Positions 196 through 34,800 of a stretch of 38,659 nt of DNA are shown in pieces. Origin of the DNA: Chloroflexaceae bacterium (lineage in GTDB: Bacteria; Chloroflexota; Chloroflexia; Chloroflexales; Chloroflexaceae); assembly GCA_012031225.1 (NCBI GenBank), contig JAAUTZ010000030.1:1-38659 (forward strand). The letters run 5' to 3'. Position numbers and translations under genes: made by a program. Below the pieces are notes generated by a model, which was not told where the DNA came from, ran no database searches, and was given only the letters and a program-made list of their open reading frames with translations. Position 1 is the stretch's first letter, and every line of letters begins with the position of its first letter.

Positions 196-1602
196 ATGCT
201 TACGAGAATCGAAATAGATGGCTTCAAAACATTTCAAAAATTCTCGCTCGACCTCGGCCCGTTTCACGTCATTGTGGGTGTGAATGGCACCGGCAAGAGC
301 AACCTGTTTGATGCGCTGCAACTGTTATCGCGCCTTGTGGATGCAGATCTATTAACTGCATTCCAAGCGATGCGCGGCGAGGCGGGTGAGCTATTTCGGG
401 TGCTGCCTGATGGCACGCGCAGCGACACGATAACATTGGCGGTGGAGTTGTTCATCAATCGGCGCATCCGTGACCAATGGGGCGACGAGGTAGAACTTAA
501 GTATACGCGCCTACGCTATGAAGTAGCCATCCAGCGTCGCCAAGATAGTCGAGGGTTGGAGCGACTCTACGTGACCCACGAAAGCCTAAGACTGTTAGCT
601 CGCAGTGAAGATCCATGGATCAACCAGTATCTCGGCAAAGAACGTACTACGTGGCTACCAAAACTTAGCGGTGGCCGCGGCCCATTCATATCAACTGTCC
701 CAACAAGTGATGCAGACGAGGGGGCAACCAACAATGTCGAAATCGCACTGCATCAAGATGGGCGCGGTGGCAAGCAATCGAGTATTGCTGAGCGGCTTGA
801 GCGCACGGTACTTAGTGGGGTCTCGCGCACCGATTTCCCCCATGCGCTCGCAGTGCGTGAAGCGTTGCGCTCGTTGATGTTCTTGCAACTCAATCCTGAA
901 GTCATCCGCCAGCCCAGCTCAATGCTTGACAAGGATCGGATAGCTTCTGATGGACGGTATATCGCTAGTACGCTGGCCCGCCTGAAGCGCGAGGATGAAG
1001 GCATTCTGACTGATATTTCCCGCGATCTTGCTAATTTCGTGCCGGGCATCATGCAAATTGATGTCCGTGAAGATCGTGCGCGTGATGAGTATCTTGTGTA
1101 TGCCCGCACGGAAGACAATAACGAGTTTTCTTCGCGGGTGCTATCAGACGGAACCCTGCGCCTGCTTGCGCTGACGGTACTCAAGCACGACCCTGCGTAT
1201 CACGGGGTACTCTGTTTTGAGGAGCCGGAAAACGGCGTACACCCCTCACGCCTAAAACGGACTGCCGCGCTGCTGCGTGAACTGACAACCGATTTCAGCG
1301 ATCCTGAGCAGGTGGATCAGCCATTACGCCAGTTGCTCGTGAATACCCACTCGCCAGTGTTTGCCGCCCAACCCGATGTGCGGGATGGGTTGATGTTTGC
1401 CGAGATGGTGCAACATGTGGAACCCCACCAAAACACACCACCTGCGCGTGTCACCCGCATCACGCCGATACCATTACAGGATAGCTTCTCGTCCGAGTTT
1501 GATCGGCATGGCCGGCGACAGTTGCACGAAGTCATCCACTTCCTCGAGTGTGCCGATCCATCAGATGCGATTGGGGTCTTACAGAAAACTGGGCGGGTAT
1601 GA
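196..1602 (+). CDS. AAA family ATPase (AAA_21/OLD-like ABC-type ATPase)
   Basis: A 468-residue ABC/SMC-type ATPase of the AAA_21 group. The N-terminus has the RecF-like start [12 protein letters not shown], then the P-loop GVNGTGKS (about 28-35). The lid region in the middle is unremarkable. The signature-like [11 protein letters not shown] lies near 316-326, Walker [14 protein letters not shown] near 338, and the H-loop NTHSPVF near 382-388. This is the motif set of OLD-family and PARIS AriA-type ATPases. There is no Toprim domain in this protein; one is encoded by the next gene, whose ATG overlaps this stop (ATGA). The start has a GGAGG (184-188) eight bases upstream of the ATG. It is probably a nucleic-acid-responsive sensor or motor controlling the partner. 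A role in phage defence or repair is inferred from the architecture. Confidence 0.88.
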
Positions 1603-2242: not shown

Positions 2243-3874
2243 CTACCCCACCCGCACGATCAGGCTTGCACCCGTCATCTCTGGCGCAGGCGGCAAGCCC
2301 AGCAGATCCAGCAGCGTCGGCACCACATCCGCCAGCCGCCCACCGCCCCGCAGCGTCACCGCGCCTTTGTGCAAGCCTAAGCCATCCGCTGCCACCAGTA
2401 TGCACGGCACGGGATTGGTCGTGTGCGCCGTGTGCATTCCCCCCGATTCTGGGTCTACCATCATCTCAGCATTGCCATGATCAGCGATAAGCAAAGCCGC
2501 CCCGCCGCGGGCCACAATCGCTGGCACGACCTGCCCCAATGCCGCATCCACCGTGCTACAGGCCGCGATGATCGCTTCGGGCACACCCGTATGCCCAACC
2601 ATATCTGGGTTGGCATAGTTGGCAATCAGCAAGTCGTAGGTATCGCTAGCGATGGCTTTGAGTAGCTCCTCAGTCACCCCCGCCGCGCTCATCTCTGGTT
2701 GCAGATCGTAGGTAGCCACTTTGGGCGACGGCACCAGCACCCGATCTTCGCCAGCAAACGGCTGCTCGCGCCGCCCATTGAAGAAGAAGGTAACGTGGGG
2801 GTACTTCTCGGTCTCGGCAATGTGAAACTGGCGCAACCCAGCACTGCTGACAATCTGGGCAATCGGATGCTCGACATTGTGCGGCGGGTAGGCAATCTGC
2901 ACTGGCAAGCCTTCCTCGTAGCGCGTCATCGTCACATAATACAGGTCATCCAGCATCGCCCCGCGCTGCCAGATCTGCGCTGGCATGGCTTGCCCTTCGG
3001 CTGCCTGCTGCTGGTAGTGGGCTTGCACCCGCGCATCCAGATCAGGTAACACGAAGGCTTGCGTCAGCTGCCGCCCGCGATCTGGGCGGAAGTTGGTAAA
3101 GATGATCGCATCGCCGGCCTGCACCGTCGCCACTGGCTGGCTCGCGTGTTGGATGATCGCCGGCAGCATAAACTCATCGCTGACATCAGCGGCATAGGAT
3201 GCTTCAATCGCTTCTCGCGCACTAGCAAACGGTGTGCCTACGCCATCTACCAGCGCGGCATACGCCCGTCCGGTGCGCTCCCATCGCTTATCCCGATCCA
3301 TTGCATAGTAGCGCCCGATCACGGTGGCAATCGTGCCCACGCCAATCTCGCGGATCGCCTGTTCCAATGCGGGCAGAAAATCTATCGCACTGCGCGGCAA
3401 CACATCGCGCCCATCCAGAAACAGGTGGATGTACACCTGCTCAAGGTGGTGCTGTTGGGCCAGCCGCAGCAGGGCGTGCAGGTGATCTTGGTGGGCATGC
3501 ACCCCGCCGGACCCAAACAAGCCCATCAGGTGCAGCTTGCTGCTGCGCTGCTGGGCATGCTGAATCGCCCCCACCAGTGCCGGATTGGTGAAGAAATCGC
3601 CGTCACTGATGGATTTGTTGATGCGGGTGTAATCTTGATAGACGACCAAGCCCGCCCCCAGATTCAGATGCCCAACTTCCGAGTTGCCGATCTGCCCTTC
3701 TGGTAGCCCGACATCCATGCCCGATGCACCGAGCGTCGTAAAAGGGCAGGTTGCACTCCAGTGATCTACATTGGGCGTATCCGCCAGACTCACGCCATTG
3801 GTCGGGCTTGGCTCCGCTAGCCCCCAACCATCCATAATAATCAGGGCAATCGGGCGCGGACGGGTCTCACTCAT
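2243..3874 (-). CDS. gpmI: 2,3-bisphosphoglycerate-independent phosphoglycerate mutase
   Basis: This enzyme interconverts 3- and 2-phosphoglycerate in glycolysis and gluconeogenesis using two Mn ions. At 543 residues it is slightly longer than the common 510-515. Alkaline-phosphatase superfamily motifs are complete: IMDGWG with metal ligand Asp15, IGNSEVGHLNLG with nucleophile Ser65, the phosphate-binding region with FLDGRD and NFRPDRGR, and the late ADHGNAEMM metal motif with a following HT. The start at 3874 is preceded by a strong GGAGGAGAG site. The gene stands alone; its end nearly touches that of the convergent DUF4276 gene, with no room for a separate terminator. Confidence 0.97.
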   Translation of the reverse strand: MSETRPRPIALIIMDGWGLAEPSPTNGVSLADTPNVDHWSATCPFTTLGASGMDVGLPEGQIGNSEVGHLNLGAGLVVYQDYTRINKSISDGDFFTNPALVGAIQHAQQRSSKLHLMGLFGSGGVHAHQDHLHALLRLAQQHHLEQVYIHLFLDGRDVLPRSAIDFLPALEQAIREIGVGTIATVIGRYYAMDRDKRWERTGRAYAALVDGVGTPFASAREAIEASYAADVSDEFMLPAIIQHASQPVATVQAGDAIIFTNFRPDRGRQLTQAFVLPDLDARVQAHYQQQAAEGQAMPAQIWQRGAMLDDLYYVTMTRYEEGLPVQIAYPPHNVEHPIAQIVSSAGLRQFHIAETEKYPHVTFFFNGRREQPFAGEDRVLVPSPKVATYDLQPEMSAAGVTEELLKAIASDTYDLLIANYANPDMVGHTGVPEAIIAACSTVDAALGQVVPAIVARGGAALLIADHGNAEMMVDPESGGMHTAHTTNPVPCILVAADGLGLHKGAVTLRGGGRLADVVPTLLDLLGLPPAPEMTGASLIVRVG

Positions 3875-23782: not shown

Positions 23783-25531
23783 ATGGATAAAATTATCCGC
23801 TACCCGATTGCAGTGATTGGCTCGCCCAATAGCACGACCACCTTTACGGTAGATATTCTTGAAACCGCCCGTGATCGCGCCCTCGATCATGCGTGGGTTA
23901 CATTTGAGGTGATTGAACGCTTCAATGGCAAAGCCTATCGCAAGCGGGCGTTATGCCAACTCGGTGGCATTGTCACCCGCAATCGCTGGCACGAAGACCC
24001 GGTGATCCGCGCCGTGATTAAACATCAAGGGGCAATCCCCGCGCTGAGTGGCGAAAGCGACCTGACCAGTGCCCAACTCACGGCACTGGGTGTGTTCCTG
24101 CTCGACGATCAGGGGTATGTGCGCCGCCGTACCACGCTCTCAATCCCGCCCCCAAGTGGCACGCCCGTCTACCCCGCCGATGCCGAAGCCCTGCAAGAAT
24201 TGGTGCATACCGAGCCGGGCATCTTCTACGCCGGGCAATCGCCGGGCGATGGCTTGCCGGTGCCCCTCACGCTGCGGCACTTCGGCAAAACCGAAGAAGG
24301 CGGCTTCGGCGAAGCCGTGATGCTCGGTATTTTCGGGCAGACGCGCAGCGGCAAAAGTATCCTCGCCGCGCAGCTCCTCGCGGGCTTTGCCGCCAATCCG
24401 AGTATGGGCTTGCTGATCCTCGATCCGCAGGGCGAATTTGGGCAAGATCGGTTTGCGGCGGGCGATCATCGCGTAGATTTCAGCATCCGGCGCATGCTCG
24501 GTGCGCTGCAACACCGGCGCGAGATCATCGTCACCAACACCAACGAAGTCGCCCTCGAAGGCACAGAAGCCTTCACCGAGATGCTACGGCGGGCGAGCTT
24601 CTTTGCCACGCTCGGCTTTAAGGGGCACAACAAAGAGCGCGAGGCAAGCGAGCGGCTGGCAACAATCCTGAGCGAACTGCACGACAGCAACGGCAAACAC
24701 CGCCCGATCCGCGATCTGCGCGGAAGCGACCTGCCCGGCTTGGTGCGCGATCTCGCTAAGTTTGCCGATGTAATCTATGCCACGCGGCCCGGCACCACGC
24801 CCGGCGAAGGGCAACGTGCGCTGGATGTCCTTGCCCGTTACCAGCTCGACGAATTGCGCCTCAAGCGGGTGTGGGGCGAAACCTTGAACGCCTTCCGCAC
24901 CGATGACGGGCGCACCCCCCTCTCAACGCTGATCCAGCAAGTTCTCACCGAACGCGCCGTCGTGGTGCTGTCCTTCGCGCAAGAGGGCGGTAAACACGAT
25001 GTCCCCTACTTCCTGCTCAATGAAATCCTCACACGCCTGCGCCATGTGATCCACCGCAGCTTCCAGCACGGACAAACCAGCAATGCGCTCGTGCTGCTCG
25101 ATGAAGCCCACCTGTTTGCGGGCGAACACGCCAACGATACCGCCGATGGCAGCCGCACGCGCACGATGCTCGCGCAGAGCGTGCGGATGACTGGCAAGTA
25201 CGGCGTGGGCTGGTTCTTTGTGACGCAGACGTTGCACGACTTCGACAAGACAATCCTGCGCCAGCTCCAAGTCAAAATCTTTGGGCAGGGCTTCAAAGTC
25301 GGAGCCGACCGTGAATACGTGCAGACTGAATTGGGCACCGAAGGATTCACCCGCTATTGCTCGCTGCCTGACCCCAAACGCACTGGCCGCTACACCTTCA
25401 TGATCACAGGGCCAATTGTTGCGCTCGGCTCGCTCGGCACACCGCTCGTATTGCAGAGCTTTCGTTCGGGAATGGACCTTGTGCATGCCAACCCGCGCTG
25501 CTTCGCGTCCATCGAGCTAACCGTATCGTGA
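23783..25531 (+). CDS. HerA-like ATPase (DUF87, FtsK/HerA superfamily)
   Basis: A 582-residue DNA-translocase-type ATPase. An N-terminal beta-rich, HAS-barrel-like region (about 1-80) precedes the P-loop GIFGQTRSGKSILAAQLL (about 183-200). The strand LLILDPQGEFG (about 210-220) is the usual HerA motif following the P-loop. Walker B is NALVLLDEAHLFAGEH (about 433-448), then VGWFFVTQTLHDFDKTILRQLQ with sensor and arginine-finger positions. HerA normally works with the nuclease NurA; none is present. The next gene, 343 bases on, encodes a PHP phosphoesterase with an AlbA_2 domain. GGAGG precedes the ATG by nine bases. A DNA motor in repair or defence is inferred. Confidence 0.88.
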   Translation: MDKIIRYPIAVIGSPNSTTTFTVDILETARDRALDHAWVTFEVIERFNGKAYRKRALCQLGGIVTRNRWHEDPVIRAVIKHQGAIPALSGESDLTSAQLTALGVFLLDDQGYVRRRTTLSIPPPSGTPVYPADAEALQELVHTEPGIFYAGQSPGDGLPVPLTLRHFGKTEEGGFGEAVMLGIFGQTRSGKSILAAQLLAGFAANPSMGLLILDPQGEFGQDRFAAGDHRVDFSIRRMLGALQHRREIIVTNTNEVALEGTEAFTEMLRRASFFATLGFKGHNKEREASERLATILSELHDSNGKHRPIRDLRGSDLPGLVRDLAKFADVIYATRPGTTPGEGQRALDVLARYQLDELRLKRVWGETLNAFRTDDGRTPLSTLIQQVLTERAVVVLSFAQEGGKHDVPYFLLNEILTRLRHVIHRSFQHGQTSNALVLLDEAHLFAGEHANDTADGSRTRTMLAQSVRMTGKYGVGWFFVTQTLHDFDKTILRQLQVKIFGQGFKVGADREYVQTELGTEGFTRYCSLPDPKRTGRYTFMITGPIVALGSLGTPLVLQSFRSGMDLVHANPRCFASIELTVS

Positions 25532-25874: not shown

Positions 25875-28367
25875 ATGAGTACGACATCCAAAGAACGCAA
25901 TGGGCAGCGTTGGATACGAGTTGATTTGCACATACACACGCCAGCTTCCGAAGATTATGCCGAACCCGATGTCGCCTACCTCGACATGCTCCGCGAAGCT
26001 GAACAGCGTGGCTTGGAACTGATCGCCTTCACCGACCATAATACGGTACACGGCTATGAGCAGTTCCAACGCGAAATTGAATTTCTGCAAACCCTCGAAG
26101 CAGCTGGGCGGCTGACTGATGCAGAAGCAGTGCAGCTTGCCGAGTATCGGCGGTTGCTCACCAAAATTACGGTTCTACCCGGATTTGAATTTACCTCTCA
26201 CTATGGCGCACACATTTTGGCGATCTTCTCGCCGCAGCAGCCGCTGAGCCTGATGGAAGCGACGCTGTTGCAGCTTGGCATCCCCCCCGAAATGCTGAAG
26301 AAAGGCGCGTGCAGCGTCCCCGATACACGCTATGCGGCCGAAGCCTATGAGATCATTGCGCGAGCCGGTGGGCTAGTCATTGCCGCGCACGCGAATGGCC
26401 CCAACGGCGTGATTACCGAAACCCTGCGGATGGGCACGAGTGGCCAATCTCGTGTCGCTGCGACCCAGAGCCAACACCTCAGTGCGCTCGAATTTATCAA
26501 CTTCTACACCGATCACGATAAATTCACCTCGCCCGGCTTCTACAATGGCAAGACGGAACACTACGAGCGGCGTATGTTCTGCATTCAAGGCAGCGATGCT
26601 CACCGCCTGCGCCGCCTGCCCGATAGCGAGCTACACATCAGCCATCGGCAGGGCATCGGAGATCGTTATGTCGAAATGCTGCTGCCCGAAGCGAGCTTCG
26701 AGGCCTTGCGTCAGCTCTTCGGCAGCGATGAGTTTGAGCGGGTGCGCGTGCCCAAGCGCGATCAGAAGCTATGGGAAGTTGATGCACTGCGCTTCGGAGC
26801 CGTCTCCGAACGGCAGATTCTCCGCAGCGTAGGCACGGGCGCACCGATGGAAGCGGCGATCCGCGAGCTGTGGAAGGATGTAGCGGCACTGGCGAATGCC
26901 GGCGGCGGCGTGCTCATCGTTGGCTCAGAGCCGGGCGGTCAGGTGAGTGGCGTAGAGCGGCCTGATCTGGTGAGTGAGCTGTTGCGCCAGAGTGTGCAGG
27001 AGCAGCTGGAGCAGCAGCCCTACATTTCGCTGGAGCTACTCAACTACGAAGGGCGCGACATTGTGCGGGTCGAGGTTCGGGCAGAAGGATTGCCGCCCTA
27101 CGTCAGCACCAACGGCGTGATCTACGTGCGCCGCGCCAATGCTACTGCGCCTGCCACCCGAGCCGAAGTGATGCAGCTCTGTCGGCGGGCACTGGCAGAG
27201 GATGGGCAGATCGAAGATACCTCCAATCCACTGGAGTTGCCCCATAGTGGCGTAGAAGTGGTGGATGCCCAACTGCGCGGCGATATGTGGTATTACGAAG
27301 TACGGGATCTCCGCACGACGGCTGGCGTAACCCGCGACAAGGCACAGGGGCTGTGGTCCTATGCCATTGCCCGCCACGAGGATCTCCGTGAGAAGCGCGT
27401 AGACTTGCATAGCCAAGTGCGCTGGCGGGGGCAGTTCGGGGTGTGGCGAGCTTATCGGCAGGGCAACCGCGTGAAGTACGATCTCGTGCATCGGGATAGC
27501 AACGGGGTTGTACAGCGGGTTTTCTACGGCGTGTCTGATTGGGGCTTGGGCGAGGAGTGGGCAAGTTTGCTGAGTGAACGCCCCGCCGAAGAATTCGAGC
27601 CAGAACTCCAATACGTCGAACACGGCGACAGTGCCAGCAACGGGGGCAACAGCGGCAACGGCGTACACGGCAGCAATGGCAGTGGGGATAGCGGCAATGA
27701 GCACAGCACAAGTGGCAATGGGCAGAGCAACGGCAGCACGCTGAGCCACGCCGACAACAGCAACACCCCCATCTTCATTCCCGGCAATTCGCTGGATGAC
27801 TTTGACCAGTTGCCAGAGCTAGCTACCCCGTGGGGCGAACGACAGTATCGCTGGCGGGGGCGGGGCGGGCTGTGGCGCATCTACACCGATGAGCAGGGGC
27901 AGGTGCGCTTTGATCTGGCGATGCGCGACAAAGATGGCAACAACTACCAAGAGTACCACCACGTACCGCAGAACAAGCTCACCGATGCATGGCTGGGGAT
28001 GATCCGCGTGCCGCGTCCGCGCACCGGCATTGAGGTGGTGAGTGCCGCCCCCGATGATACCGCTGAGTGGCGGTATGTGTTCCGCGATCTGCGAACGGGC
28101 GACAGCAGCGGTGCGCCGTGGCGTATGCAGGATATTAAATCCGGCACGGTGCGCGAGTATGCGGCTCGGATGTATCTGCAAGATTTGCCGCTTGATGAGA
28201 TGGGCGTGCGCTGGTGGGGCAACATCGGCTATCTGCGCCCAATGCGGAGCCAAGTTGATCTGGTCTACCGCGACGAACACGGCATTGACCACCTGTTCTA
28301 TGCCGCTCGCCGCGATGAGCTTCAGGGCGACTGGCGCGAGCTATTGGAGATTTACGGCGAGATGTAG
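25875..28367 (+). CDS. PHP phosphoesterase - AlbA_2 (Schlafen-like) protein with novel C-terminal repeats
   Basis: An 830-residue multidomain protein. Residues about 12-265 are a PHP domain: VDLHIHTPASE (His19, His21), AFTDHNTV (Asp54, His55), a His in TSHYGAHILAI, AAHANGPNG and GSDAHRLRR. Residues about 310-430 look like an AlbA_2/Schlafen-type nucleic-acid-binding domain: REL-WKDVAALANAGGGVLIVG, VRVEVRAEGLPPYVS, GVIYVRRANATAPAT. The C-terminal half holds two unfamiliar modules. Module B (about 453-513, 716-776) begins GxEVV and contains a ...RDLRT core. Module A (about 514-565, 657-710, 777-825) begins (V/Y)RW-x-G. A 65-residue Gly/Ser/Asn linker (about 583-645) separates the halves. GGAGAAC precedes the ATG. 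It is probably a nuclease-like effector or repair factor. Confidence 0.85.
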   Translation: MSTTSKERNGQRWIRVDLHIHTPASEDYAEPDVAYLDMLREAEQRGLELIAFTDHNTVHGYEQFQREIEFLQTLEAAGRLTDAEAVQLAEYRRLLTKITVLPGFEFTSHYGAHILAIFSPQQPLSLMEATLLQLGIPPEMLKKGACSVPDTRYAAEAYEIIARAGGLVIAAHANGPNGVITETLRMGTSGQSRVAATQSQHLSALEFINFYTDHDKFTSPGFYNGKTEHYERRMFCIQGSDAHRLRRLPDSELHISHRQGIGDRYVEMLLPEASFEALRQLFGSDEFERVRVPKRDQKLWEVDALRFGAVSERQILRSVGTGAPMEAAIRELWKDVAALANAGGGVLIVGSEPGGQVSGVERPDLVSELLRQSVQEQLEQQPYISLELLNYEGRDIVRVEVRAEGLPPYVSTNGVIYVRRANATAPATRAEVMQLCRRALAEDGQIEDTSNPLELPHSGVEVVDAQLRGDMWYYEVRDLRTTAGVTRDKAQGLWSYAIARHEDLREKRVDLHSQVRWRGQFGVWRAYRQGNRVKYDLVHRDSNGVVQRVFYGVSDWGLGEEWASLLSERPAEEFEPELQYVEHGDSASNGGNSGNGVHGSNGSGDSGNEHSTSGNGQSNGSTLSHADNSNTPIFIPGNSLDDFDQLPELATPWGERQYRWRGRGGLWRIYTDEQGQVRFDLAMRDKDGNNYQEYHHVPQNKLTDAWLGMIRVPRPRTGIEVVSAAPDDTAEWRYVFRDLRTGDSSGAPWRMQDIKSGTVREYAARMYLQDLPLDEMGVRWWGNIGYLRPMRSQVDLVYRDEHGIDHLFYAARRDELQGDWRELLEIYGEM
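27640..27765 (+). repeat. Gly/Asn/Ser-codon low-complexity tract
   Basis: Irregular repeats of GGCAACAGC / GGCAACGGC / AGCAATGGC units encode the flexible linker inside the PHP protein. The frame is kept, so this is a slippage-prone coding repeat. Confidence 0.75.
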
Positions 28368-33190: not shown

Positions 33191-33306
33191 TGCCCACTGC
33201 ACTTGCGCGGTGTGCATGCGATAACCATGAAAGATTATTTCTTCACTCAAGGCTTGCCAGAATCAGGGGCATGTCATTATAATGAGAAGAAGGAGAAATG
33301 TTGCCA

Positions 33307-33798
33307 ATGGCGAATTTGCTGATAGACCGCAGAGTCCAGTTGCAGCACCAGCAGACACAGTATCAGCACCTCGAACAACTCCACTGCACGCTGATGCGTC
33401 AGGCAGCGACTGCCCCCGCAGAACAACCAACACTCGTGCAACGGATGGCCCTGCTCCGGGTGCAAATCGAACTCCCGCTCCCAGCATTGCGCTTGCCCGT
33501 GTTGCCGACGGTGGCGCAGTGGGGCGCGTTGCTCAGTCCTGACCAGCTGGAGTCAATCCTCGACAAGTATGAGTATGTGTGGAAGATTGAGCGGCGGCTG
33601 GATCAACTGCAACAGGCGATCTATGCCCACGTCCCGTTAGCCGATGTGCCCGTGTTCTGGTTGCTCTGGGCATGCCGCCTAGAGTTGCAGAGTATGCAGC
33701 TGCGCGAACAGCTTGTGCAGCACTTCAATGAAATCCATGCAAAAACCTATGCACCAACACCGACTCTATCAGGATTGAAAGTACGCGAACGAGGATGA
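33307..33798 (+). CDS. Hypothetical protein encoded ahead of the caspase gene
   Basis: A 163-residue helical, Gln/Leu-rich protein. I start at ATG 33307 because AAGGAG is then about 11 bases away; an ATG at 33298 is too close to it. The N-terminal half (RRVQLQHQQTQYQHLEQLH) looks like a coiled coil. The middle has QWGALLSPDQLESILDKYEYVWKIERRL, split by a helix break. The C-terminal part has PVFWLLWACRLELQSMQL. I recognise no family. It ends six bases before the caspase start, so the two are co-translated. It is probably an adaptor or partner of the protease. Confidence 0.75.
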   Translation: MANLLIDRRVQLQHQQTQYQHLEQLHCTLMRQAATAPAEQPTLVQRMALLRVQIELPLPALRLPVLPTVAQWGALLSPDQLESILDKYEYVWKIERRLDQLQQAIYAHVPLADVPVFWLLWACRLELQSMQLREQLVQHFNEIHAKTYAPTPTLSGLKVRERG

Positions 33799-33804
33799 TA
33801 AGCT

Positions 33805-34800
33805 ATGCCATTCACACAGGGCTACGCGCTGGTGGTAGGGGTGGGAGCCGATCTGCCCGCTACCGTGCAAGATGCAGAACAGGTTGCAGCATTCCTGCGT
33901 GATCCGGCTCGCTGCGCCTACCCGCCTGAACAGGTGACGGTGCTGACCAACGCGCAGGCAAGCCGCGCTAGCGTGCGGGCCGGCTTGGCCCAATTGGCGC
34001 AGGATGCCCGCACCGATCCACAGGCGACGGTGGTGGTGTACCTCTCCGGACACGGGGTGGCTACGCCGCACTTTGCCTTCCTGACGCACGGCTATGATCT
34101 CCAGAACCTGCCCGCCACAGCCATCGCTGAGGCTGAACTCAGTGCCGCGCTCCGGGCCATTCCCGCCCAACGCCTGCTGGTGCTGCTCGATTGTTGCCAC
34201 GCGGGGGGGCAAGTCACGCTGAAGTCGCCGGCTGGAGTGGCATTGTCCCCGGCTCTGCCTGCTACGGTGCTAACCGAATTGGGGCAGGGTGGTGGGCGCG
34301 TAGTGCTAGCTTCCTCACGGCAGGATGAGCGATCATACATTATGCCGGGGGATCCCCTCAGCCTGTTCACCAAGACGCTGCTTGAAGCCCTCGCGGGCTA
34401 CGGCACTGCCGAGCAAGATGGCTACGCCCGAGTGCTGGATGTCGCCGGCTATGTGGCTCGGCTGGTGCCTAGCCGCTATCCGCAACAGCACCCGATCATC
34501 TCTGCCAGCCACGCCGATAACTTTGCGCTTGCCTACTATGCTGGCGGGCAATCTCAGCCTAAAGCGGTGGCGTGGGATGCACAGCAACAACAGCCGATCC
34601 TGCTTGATACGCGCAATACCGATGTGCGTGCGTGGCAAACCCAGCTCAAAAACTACGAAGAGACGCTCCGCCTGTACGAAGAACGCTTCAGCCAATACGT
34701 CAATCAAATAGACATTCCCCTGCAACAGGTGCGCGACAAGCGGGGTATTGAGCAGAAGGTGCGCGAACTGCGCCAAAAGCTGGGCTTGCCGGAAGTGTAA
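33805..34800 (+). CDS. Caspase-like (peptidase C14) protease with coiled-coil tail
   Basis: A 331-residue bacterial caspase homologue. The p20-like domain (about 1-240) begins GYALVVGVGADLPATVQDAEQ. Catalytic His83 sits in VVYLSGHG and the catalytic Cys131 in LVLLDCCHAGG. ASSRQDERSY contributes the S1-pocket region. A C-terminal helical extension (about 268-331: WQTQLKNYEETLRLYEER, RDKRGIEQKVRELRQKLGL) looks like a coiled coil and has no enzymatic motif. Bacterial caspases often act in regulated cell death or phage response, activated through associated domains. It lies between a helical hypothetical protein (6 bases) and DUF4058 (21 bases). Confidence 0.9.
   Translation: MPFTQGYALVVGVGADLPATVQDAEQVAAFLRDPARCAYPPEQVTVLTNAQASRASVRAGLAQLAQDARTDPQATVVVYLSGHGVATPHFAFLTHGYDLQNLPATAIAEAELSAALRAIPAQRLLVLLDCCHAGGQVTLKSPAGVALSPALPATVLTELGQGGGRVVLASSRQDERSYIMPGDPLSLFTKTLLEALAGYGTAEQDGYARVLDVAGYVARLVPSRYPQQHPIISASHADNFALAYYAGGQSQPKAVAWDAQQQQPILLDTRNTDVRAWQTQLKNYEETLRLYEERFSQYVNQIDIPLQQVRDKRGIEQKVRELRQKLGLPEV

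Follow-up and report, generated by a model that had tools for sequence, protein, structure and literature searches.

Domains of the PHP superfamily occur in the DNA-lesion nuclease endonuclease Q (EndoQ), in RNase AM (RNase RNM), in small-molecule phosphatases such as PsfC and in proteins of the Ppl and TrlF kind, in which a PHP domain is combined with a C-terminal ATPase. The AlbA_2 domain occurs in the Schlafen proteins (SLFN11-14), in which the motif E..E.K is the catalytic motif of the RNase. Here we describe a protein in which both domains are joined to a repeated C-terminal domain, termed BA below. It is encoded in a stretch of 38,659 nucleotides from a Chloroflexaceae bacterium (assembly GCA_012031225.1, contig JAAUTZ010000030.1), which is called the window throughout. 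An initial annotation had proposed an internal repeat built from two modules, A and B, in the C-terminal half of this protein. A literature search returned no paper on PHP-AlbA_2 proteins, on the BA domain or on the link to Lon that is reported below.

Domain architecture of the PHP-AlbA_2 protein

The open reading frame, its coordinates and its motifs match the sequence as annotated initially, and the proposed order of a PHP domain followed by an AlbA_2-like domain at the N-terminal side is borne out by Pfam (Table 1). PHP is found marginally at residues 17-106 (E 1.1e-5, 26.3 bits, just below the cut-off of 26.4; 27.7 bits in the orthologue L065, above it) and SLFN AlbA_2 clearly at residues 332-426 (49.9 bits, cut-off 25.3). 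By sequence, fold and presumed metal ligands the window protein belongs to the PHP superfamily. All nine residues that we take to be the metal ligands, placed from the PHP motifs as we know them (H19, H21, D27, H55, E105, H113, H172, D241 and H243), are present, and 37 of 42 orthologues in the alignment have the full set, which is lost in L059 and L082 and altered at a single position in each of L070, L065 and L115. In VIA fold comparisons, the PHP part is closest to EndoQ (PfuEndoQ, 5zb8 and 7k30; Z 20.1 and 19.9), followed by PsfC (Z 16.8), RNase AM (7ug9, 9etk; Z 15.0) and the AMP-bound PHP hydrolase 2yb1 (Z 13.8), and the NCBIfam and PADLOC matches of the protein are confined to this part. 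The AlbA_2 part matches Schlafen PDB chains by profile (best E 5.9e-9), and its fold matches include 3lmm (Z 12.3), 2kyy (Z 11.2), SAMD9 (Z 10.6) and Schlafens (Z 8.4-9.9, SLFN11 reaching 9.9). This domain seems to be without the Schlafen E..E.K motif: the stretch ESTHVEIK of SLFN12 sits opposite the consensus geserqil, in a weakly aligned region.

Table 1. Features of the PHP-AlbA_2-BA gene in the window
Feature	Residues	Positions	Strand	Basis
Whole open reading frame (PHP + AlbA_2 + BA + linker + A half + BA)	830 aa	25875..28367	+	
PHP phosphoesterase domain	about 12-295	25908..26759	+	Pfam PHP, presumed ligand set, EndoQ fold match
Schlafen AlbA_2 domain	about 296-440	26760..27194	+	Pfam and fold matches
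BA domain no. 1	456-566	27240..27572	+	independent HMM, 85.2 bits
B half of BA no. 1	about 456-512			
A half of BA no. 1	about 513-566			
Disordered S/G/N-rich linker	581-650	27615..27824	+	pLDDT <50; low identity
Lone A half	656-708	27840..27998	+	independent HMM, 23.2 bits, profile positions 57-107 of 109
BA domain no. 2	715-824	28017..28346	+	independent HMM, 26.7 bits, aligned 715-823

The C-terminal repeat and the BA domain

The three copies of A open with VRWRG, YRWRG and VRWWG, have the cores DLVHRDSNG, DLAMRDKDG and DLVYRDEHG and end with WASLL, WLGMI and WRELL, while the two copies of B open with GVEVV and GIEVV and have the cores WYYEVRDLRT and WRYVFRDLRT. When the pieces were aligned locally, with 1000 shuffles each, A1-A2 scored 88 (best shuffle 51), A1-A3 scored 71 (best shuffle 52) and B1-B2 scored 52 (best shuffle 48); A2-A3 taken alone was weak, its score of 40 being reached by 22 of 1000 shuffles, and none of the pairs of A with B stood out, the best (A2-B2) being reached by 70 of 1000 shuffles. 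A hidden Markov model (HMM) was built from 15 single-copy outgroup BA domains of other Chloroflexota and contained no window sequence. This independent HMM found three matches in the window protein (scores in Table 1), compared with a top score of 5.7 bits for 1000 shuffled C-termini. The two-part repeat is therefore real by the shuffle tests and by the independent HMM. The proposed layout B-A-linker-A-B-A was confirmed as well, but not the view of B and A as separate modules. Since outgroup proteins carry single copies of B followed by A, and since the HMM made from these matches the window protein, we conclude on sequence grounds that B and A are the two halves of one domain of about 112 residues, "BA", so that the array in the window reads as BA, an A half and BA. 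Descent of A and B from one ancestral half was considered and rejected, as hhalign of the halves gives a probability of 0.5%; both halves are predicted as strand-strand-strand-helix, and a duplication within BA at the level of the predicted fold is only suggestive.

BA appears to be a domain without a name so far, unmatched in the libraries that were searched. It is covered by none of Pfam, NCBIfam, PADLOC and PDB sequences, and Pfam at E 1 finds no match C-terminal of AlbA_2 in the window protein. Searched singly against Pfam, 31 BA units gave chance-level matches only (best E 0.045), and a profile of the same 31 units found nothing below E 0.6 among PDB sequences. AlphaFold2 predicts a single BA, from an alignment of 53 sequences, with a pLDDT of 94.2 and a pTM of 0.88; the model has strands at positions 7-15, 18-25, 31-35, 62-64, 67-75, 78-86 and 92-99 and helices at 42-53 and 105-110. 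The model of the full-length window protein (pLDDT 84.7, pTM 0.52) is of high confidence from residue 651 onward, and residues 569-650 in the linker region have a mean identity of 19% among Chloroflexales. Foldseek returned no match of the BA model at E 0.001, either in the PDB or in a viral library. Its best matches were SsgB structures (E 6e-3, TM 0.29), and VIA gave Z 3.3 for 3cm1 and Z 2.3 for PURA (8chv). The SsgB/SsgA-like fold (6suj, 3cm1), the top structural match, is strand-rich and of similar length like BA, but neither for it nor for the PUR and Whirly folds do the matches demonstrate a relationship. The YegP/DUF1508 and integrase-arm folds, which we had presumed to be candidate likenesses, are absent among the best 50 matches listed per BA fold search, and tyrosine recombinases were discarded as relatives, as plasmid matches reached only E 0.2-0.7. 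The initial annotation had looked to significant internal repeats, small strand-rich folds and lack of a Pfam match as its support, and all three are seen, the folds as predictions; the opposite outcome that it had named, a single known non-repeating domain over the C-terminal region, was not found.

Distribution, natural variants and gene neighbourhood

The gene is widely conserved and scattered through the Chloroflexota. It was found in 58 of 61 genomes comprising the window's own and its relatives, and in all 45 of good quality, and a scan with the whole window protein returned 14 relatives, all Chloroflexota by title. In a phylum sample of 400 genomes, BA was present in 63 and the PHP-AlbA_2 part (E 1e-10) in 66, with both in 62; four of the 66 (G160, G230, G339 and G474) are weak partial matches. 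Among 199 genomes from the class of genome G468, 119 had BA and 120 the N-terminal part (E 1e-30), 118 being common to both, and the N-terminal-only cases (G544, G611) are short open reading frames close to contig ends. The outgroup orthologues examined have 562-1082 residues and mostly one B followed by one A, and a further set of PHP-type proteins carries one BA each. A single BA is found in 15 of 20 orthologues fetched from the class, among which three have more than one (L070, L082, L083) and one has none (L077). In family f110, four genomes (G514, G543, G567 and G607) each encode a single-BA protein and a BA-A-BA protein. A FastTree phylogeny of the N-terminal part of 122 proteins, from which L060 (partial), L077 (no BA) and L129 (NYN) were left out, separates 66 single-BA from 56 multi-BA proteins as two groups with support 1.0; basic clusters of an RNA-binding-like kind in the linker or tail are present in just 10 of 122 proteins. 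BA was not found in phage records, and the three stretches of viral contigs matched by one peptide pattern include no relative. A search with a whole single-BA protein against plasmids yielded 463 records, none with 80% query coverage; the matches listed cover the PHP part only, and several are annotated as Ppl.

Genome G468 is the only BA genome in the 400-genome sample without a PHP-AlbA_2 match. It encodes a NYN protein of 509 residues with a C-terminal BA (L129, 1789-3315; Pfam NYN E 4.6e-32). Four other fetched members of its family have kept the PHP type, and the absence of the PHP gene could reflect an assembly gap, since the genome is 97% complete. A LOTUS-like middle of the NYN-BA protein, seen by eye, was dismissed because no Pfam family matches this stretch at E 0.1. 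The second variant is genus g21, represented by two sequences (L059 and L082, from genomes of about 3 Mb), in which nearly all nine presumed PHP ligands are gone. Identity of g21 to Chloroflexales is 28% in the PHP part and 34% in AlbA_2, compared with 72% and 56% among Chloroflexales themselves. The corresponding values are 72% vs 77% for the first B half, 60% vs 73% for the first A half, 47% vs 56% for the lone A half, 53% vs 67% for the last B half and 69% vs 74% for the last A half. As the array is conserved while the PHP ligands are lost, it seems to act in a way that is independent of catalysis by PHP.

The neighbourhood was surveyed in 40 chosen BA-positive loci (20 on long contigs, five of family f92 and the 15 heading the list for the G468 class). 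An upstream lon gene in the same orientation is present in 20 of 39 PHP-type loci of outgroups (outside Chloroflexales) from 13 families, a raw count of loci uncorrected for relatedness that includes L194, where the distance to lon is about 2.2 kb. Among these 20 loci, 15 have hsp20 preceding lon, and eight have a possible start codon -4 to +16 nucleotides from the lon stop; one Lon and one Hsp20 were confirmed by Pfam. In the 19 loci without upstream lon, the sequence available on that side is 4.2 kb or longer in 17 and shorter than 2.2 kb in two (L191, L196). CIRCE-like sites near lon were looked for and discarded, the best having 5 mismatches in 18 positions. Because both the class of the window (f7) and that of G468 include linked families, the linkage is probably ancient, with a later loss in Chloroflexales, whose loci have no constant neighbour among the matches listed; the window genome has two Lon_C matches, both on contigs other than that of the window. 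Near the lon-PHP genes of four loci (L168, L175, L176, L177) lie genes for AcnX and for an amino-acid-kinase-family protein that we take to be isopentenyl phosphate kinase-like, with a UbiD-type gene in three loci; these are presumably parts of an archaeal-type mevalonate route. In L054, a flavoprotein-family (UbiX-like) gene at 3057-3611 directly follows the PHP gene.

The window itself contains further genes of interest. A HerA-like ATPase gene lies upstream of the PHP gene at 23783-25531 (PADLOC HerA E 4.9e-12, mad8 E 1.4e-10), two adjacent genes at 196-2240 match PADLOC HEC-01A (E 4.4e-140) and HEC-01B (E 2.3e-38) as a candidate defence pair, and a caspase-like protein is encoded at 33298-34800 (PADLOC caspase, E 3e-18), preceded by a 166-residue open reading frame without PADLOC match.

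Candidate functions and comparison with known systems

We tentatively favour, as a possible reading that still falls somewhat short of probable, that the protein is a nucleic-acid phosphoesterase in which BA serves for recognition and which has a role in protein or heat stress. At its multi-metal site the PHP domain would hydrolyse bonds of the phosphodiester or terminal-phosphate type, nucleic acid would be held by AlbA_2, and the BA domain or array would set the target by binding either a structured nucleic acid or a partner protein. Catalysis, the nucleic-acid substrate, binding by BA, its ligand or partner and the role in stress are all points that we infer. They are suggested by the conserved presumed PHP ligands, by the proximity of the PHP fold to EndoQ and also to RNase AM, by the relationship of AlbA_2 to Schlafen proteins in profile and fold and by the NYN nuclease domain as the one other fusion partner of BA seen; g21 keeps BA as PHP decays, which would be expected if BA is a separable recognition part. 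The hsp20-lon cluster in many lineages points to heat or protein stress as the probable setting. Against a nucleic-acid phosphoesterase speak the occurrence of PHP in small-molecule phosphatases such as PsfC, the dispensability of catalysis in g21 implied by its lost ligands, the fact that no protein of known binding was a significant fold match of BA, and the neighbourhoods, as 19 of 39 outgroup loci are without upstream lon and the Chloroflexales loci scanned are without a common neighbour.

The same linkage, with its 13 families and the possible start codons close to the lon stop, can also be read as the sign of an accessory to Lon in protein quality control, in which BA would attach to Lon, to Hsp20 or to damaged proteins and the PHP-AlbA_2 part would be secondary, as a scaffold or regulator. 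The retention of BA without PHP ligands in g21 agrees with such a role, but the conservation of these ligands in most orthologues and the retention of the gene in Chloroflexales loci away from lon do not, and we regard it as doubtful. Quite unlikely in our view is a phosphoesterase for small molecules (a nucleotide or signal hydrolase) with BA as a regulating sensor: PsfC and 2yb1 are among its fold matches, whereas the best one is a DNA endonuclease, and nucleic acid is indicated both by AlbA_2 and by the occurrence of BA in a NYN fusion. Defence against phages in the manner of Ppl or TrlF, perhaps together with the upstream HerA-like gene, is very improbable. Curated NCBIfam models place the PHP part nearest to TrlF (105.3 bits, profile positions 1-277 of 944 only) and Ppl (63.0 bits, positions 1-210 of 882 only), but these scores are far under the cut-offs of 350 and 1000 bits, and by Pfam the open reading frame has no C-terminal ATPase part. 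Moreover, the gene is present in every good-quality relative, BA was not found in the phage records or viral contigs searched, and the HerA-like neighbour recurs only in the sister genome (L031) and was found in none of 30 other loci scanned over 6.5 kb (L038 and L062 being the same contig and several flanks short), so that HerA and PHP were rejected as a defence pair.

Extending the favoured nucleic-acid reading, BA may be a new Chloroflexota fold that recognises stress-related nucleic acid (e.g., stalled rRNA or tRNA). Its processing by an exchangeable nuclease, PHP-AlbA_2 or once NYN, would through BA be tied to Lon-mediated protein quality control, the g21 array then being a stand-alone regulator without PHP catalysis; we consider this extension unlikely. 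An unnamed domain is delimited here, with a confidently predicted structure and an associated gene cluster, in a gene conserved widely across a major bacterial phylum. Two natural experiments, one with the PHP site lost but the array retained and one with a swap to an NYN nuclease, allow direct tests of the role of BA. Should the connection with Lon prove functional, a nuclease-like enzyme would be joined to protein quality control.

Compared with known systems, the window protein shares the PHP fold with RNase AM/RNM, but it reaches 21 bits against the RNaseRnm cut-off of 375 in NCBIfam, and AlbA_2 or BA was not reported in the fold match. TIGR00375, which we take to be the NCBIfam model of EndoQ, does not match the protein up to E 1 and was found in none of 14 Chloroflexota genomes carrying the PHP-AlbA_2-BA gene, while the control was positive in three of 14 reference genomes. 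With Schlafen AlbA_2 proteins (SLFN11-14, 3lmm and CbCash, 9ylu) it has the AlbA_2 domain in common by Pfam, profile and fold, but it carries one such domain. EndoQ is the best fold match of its PHP part, and in place of the remainder of EndoQ the window protein has AlbA_2 and BA.
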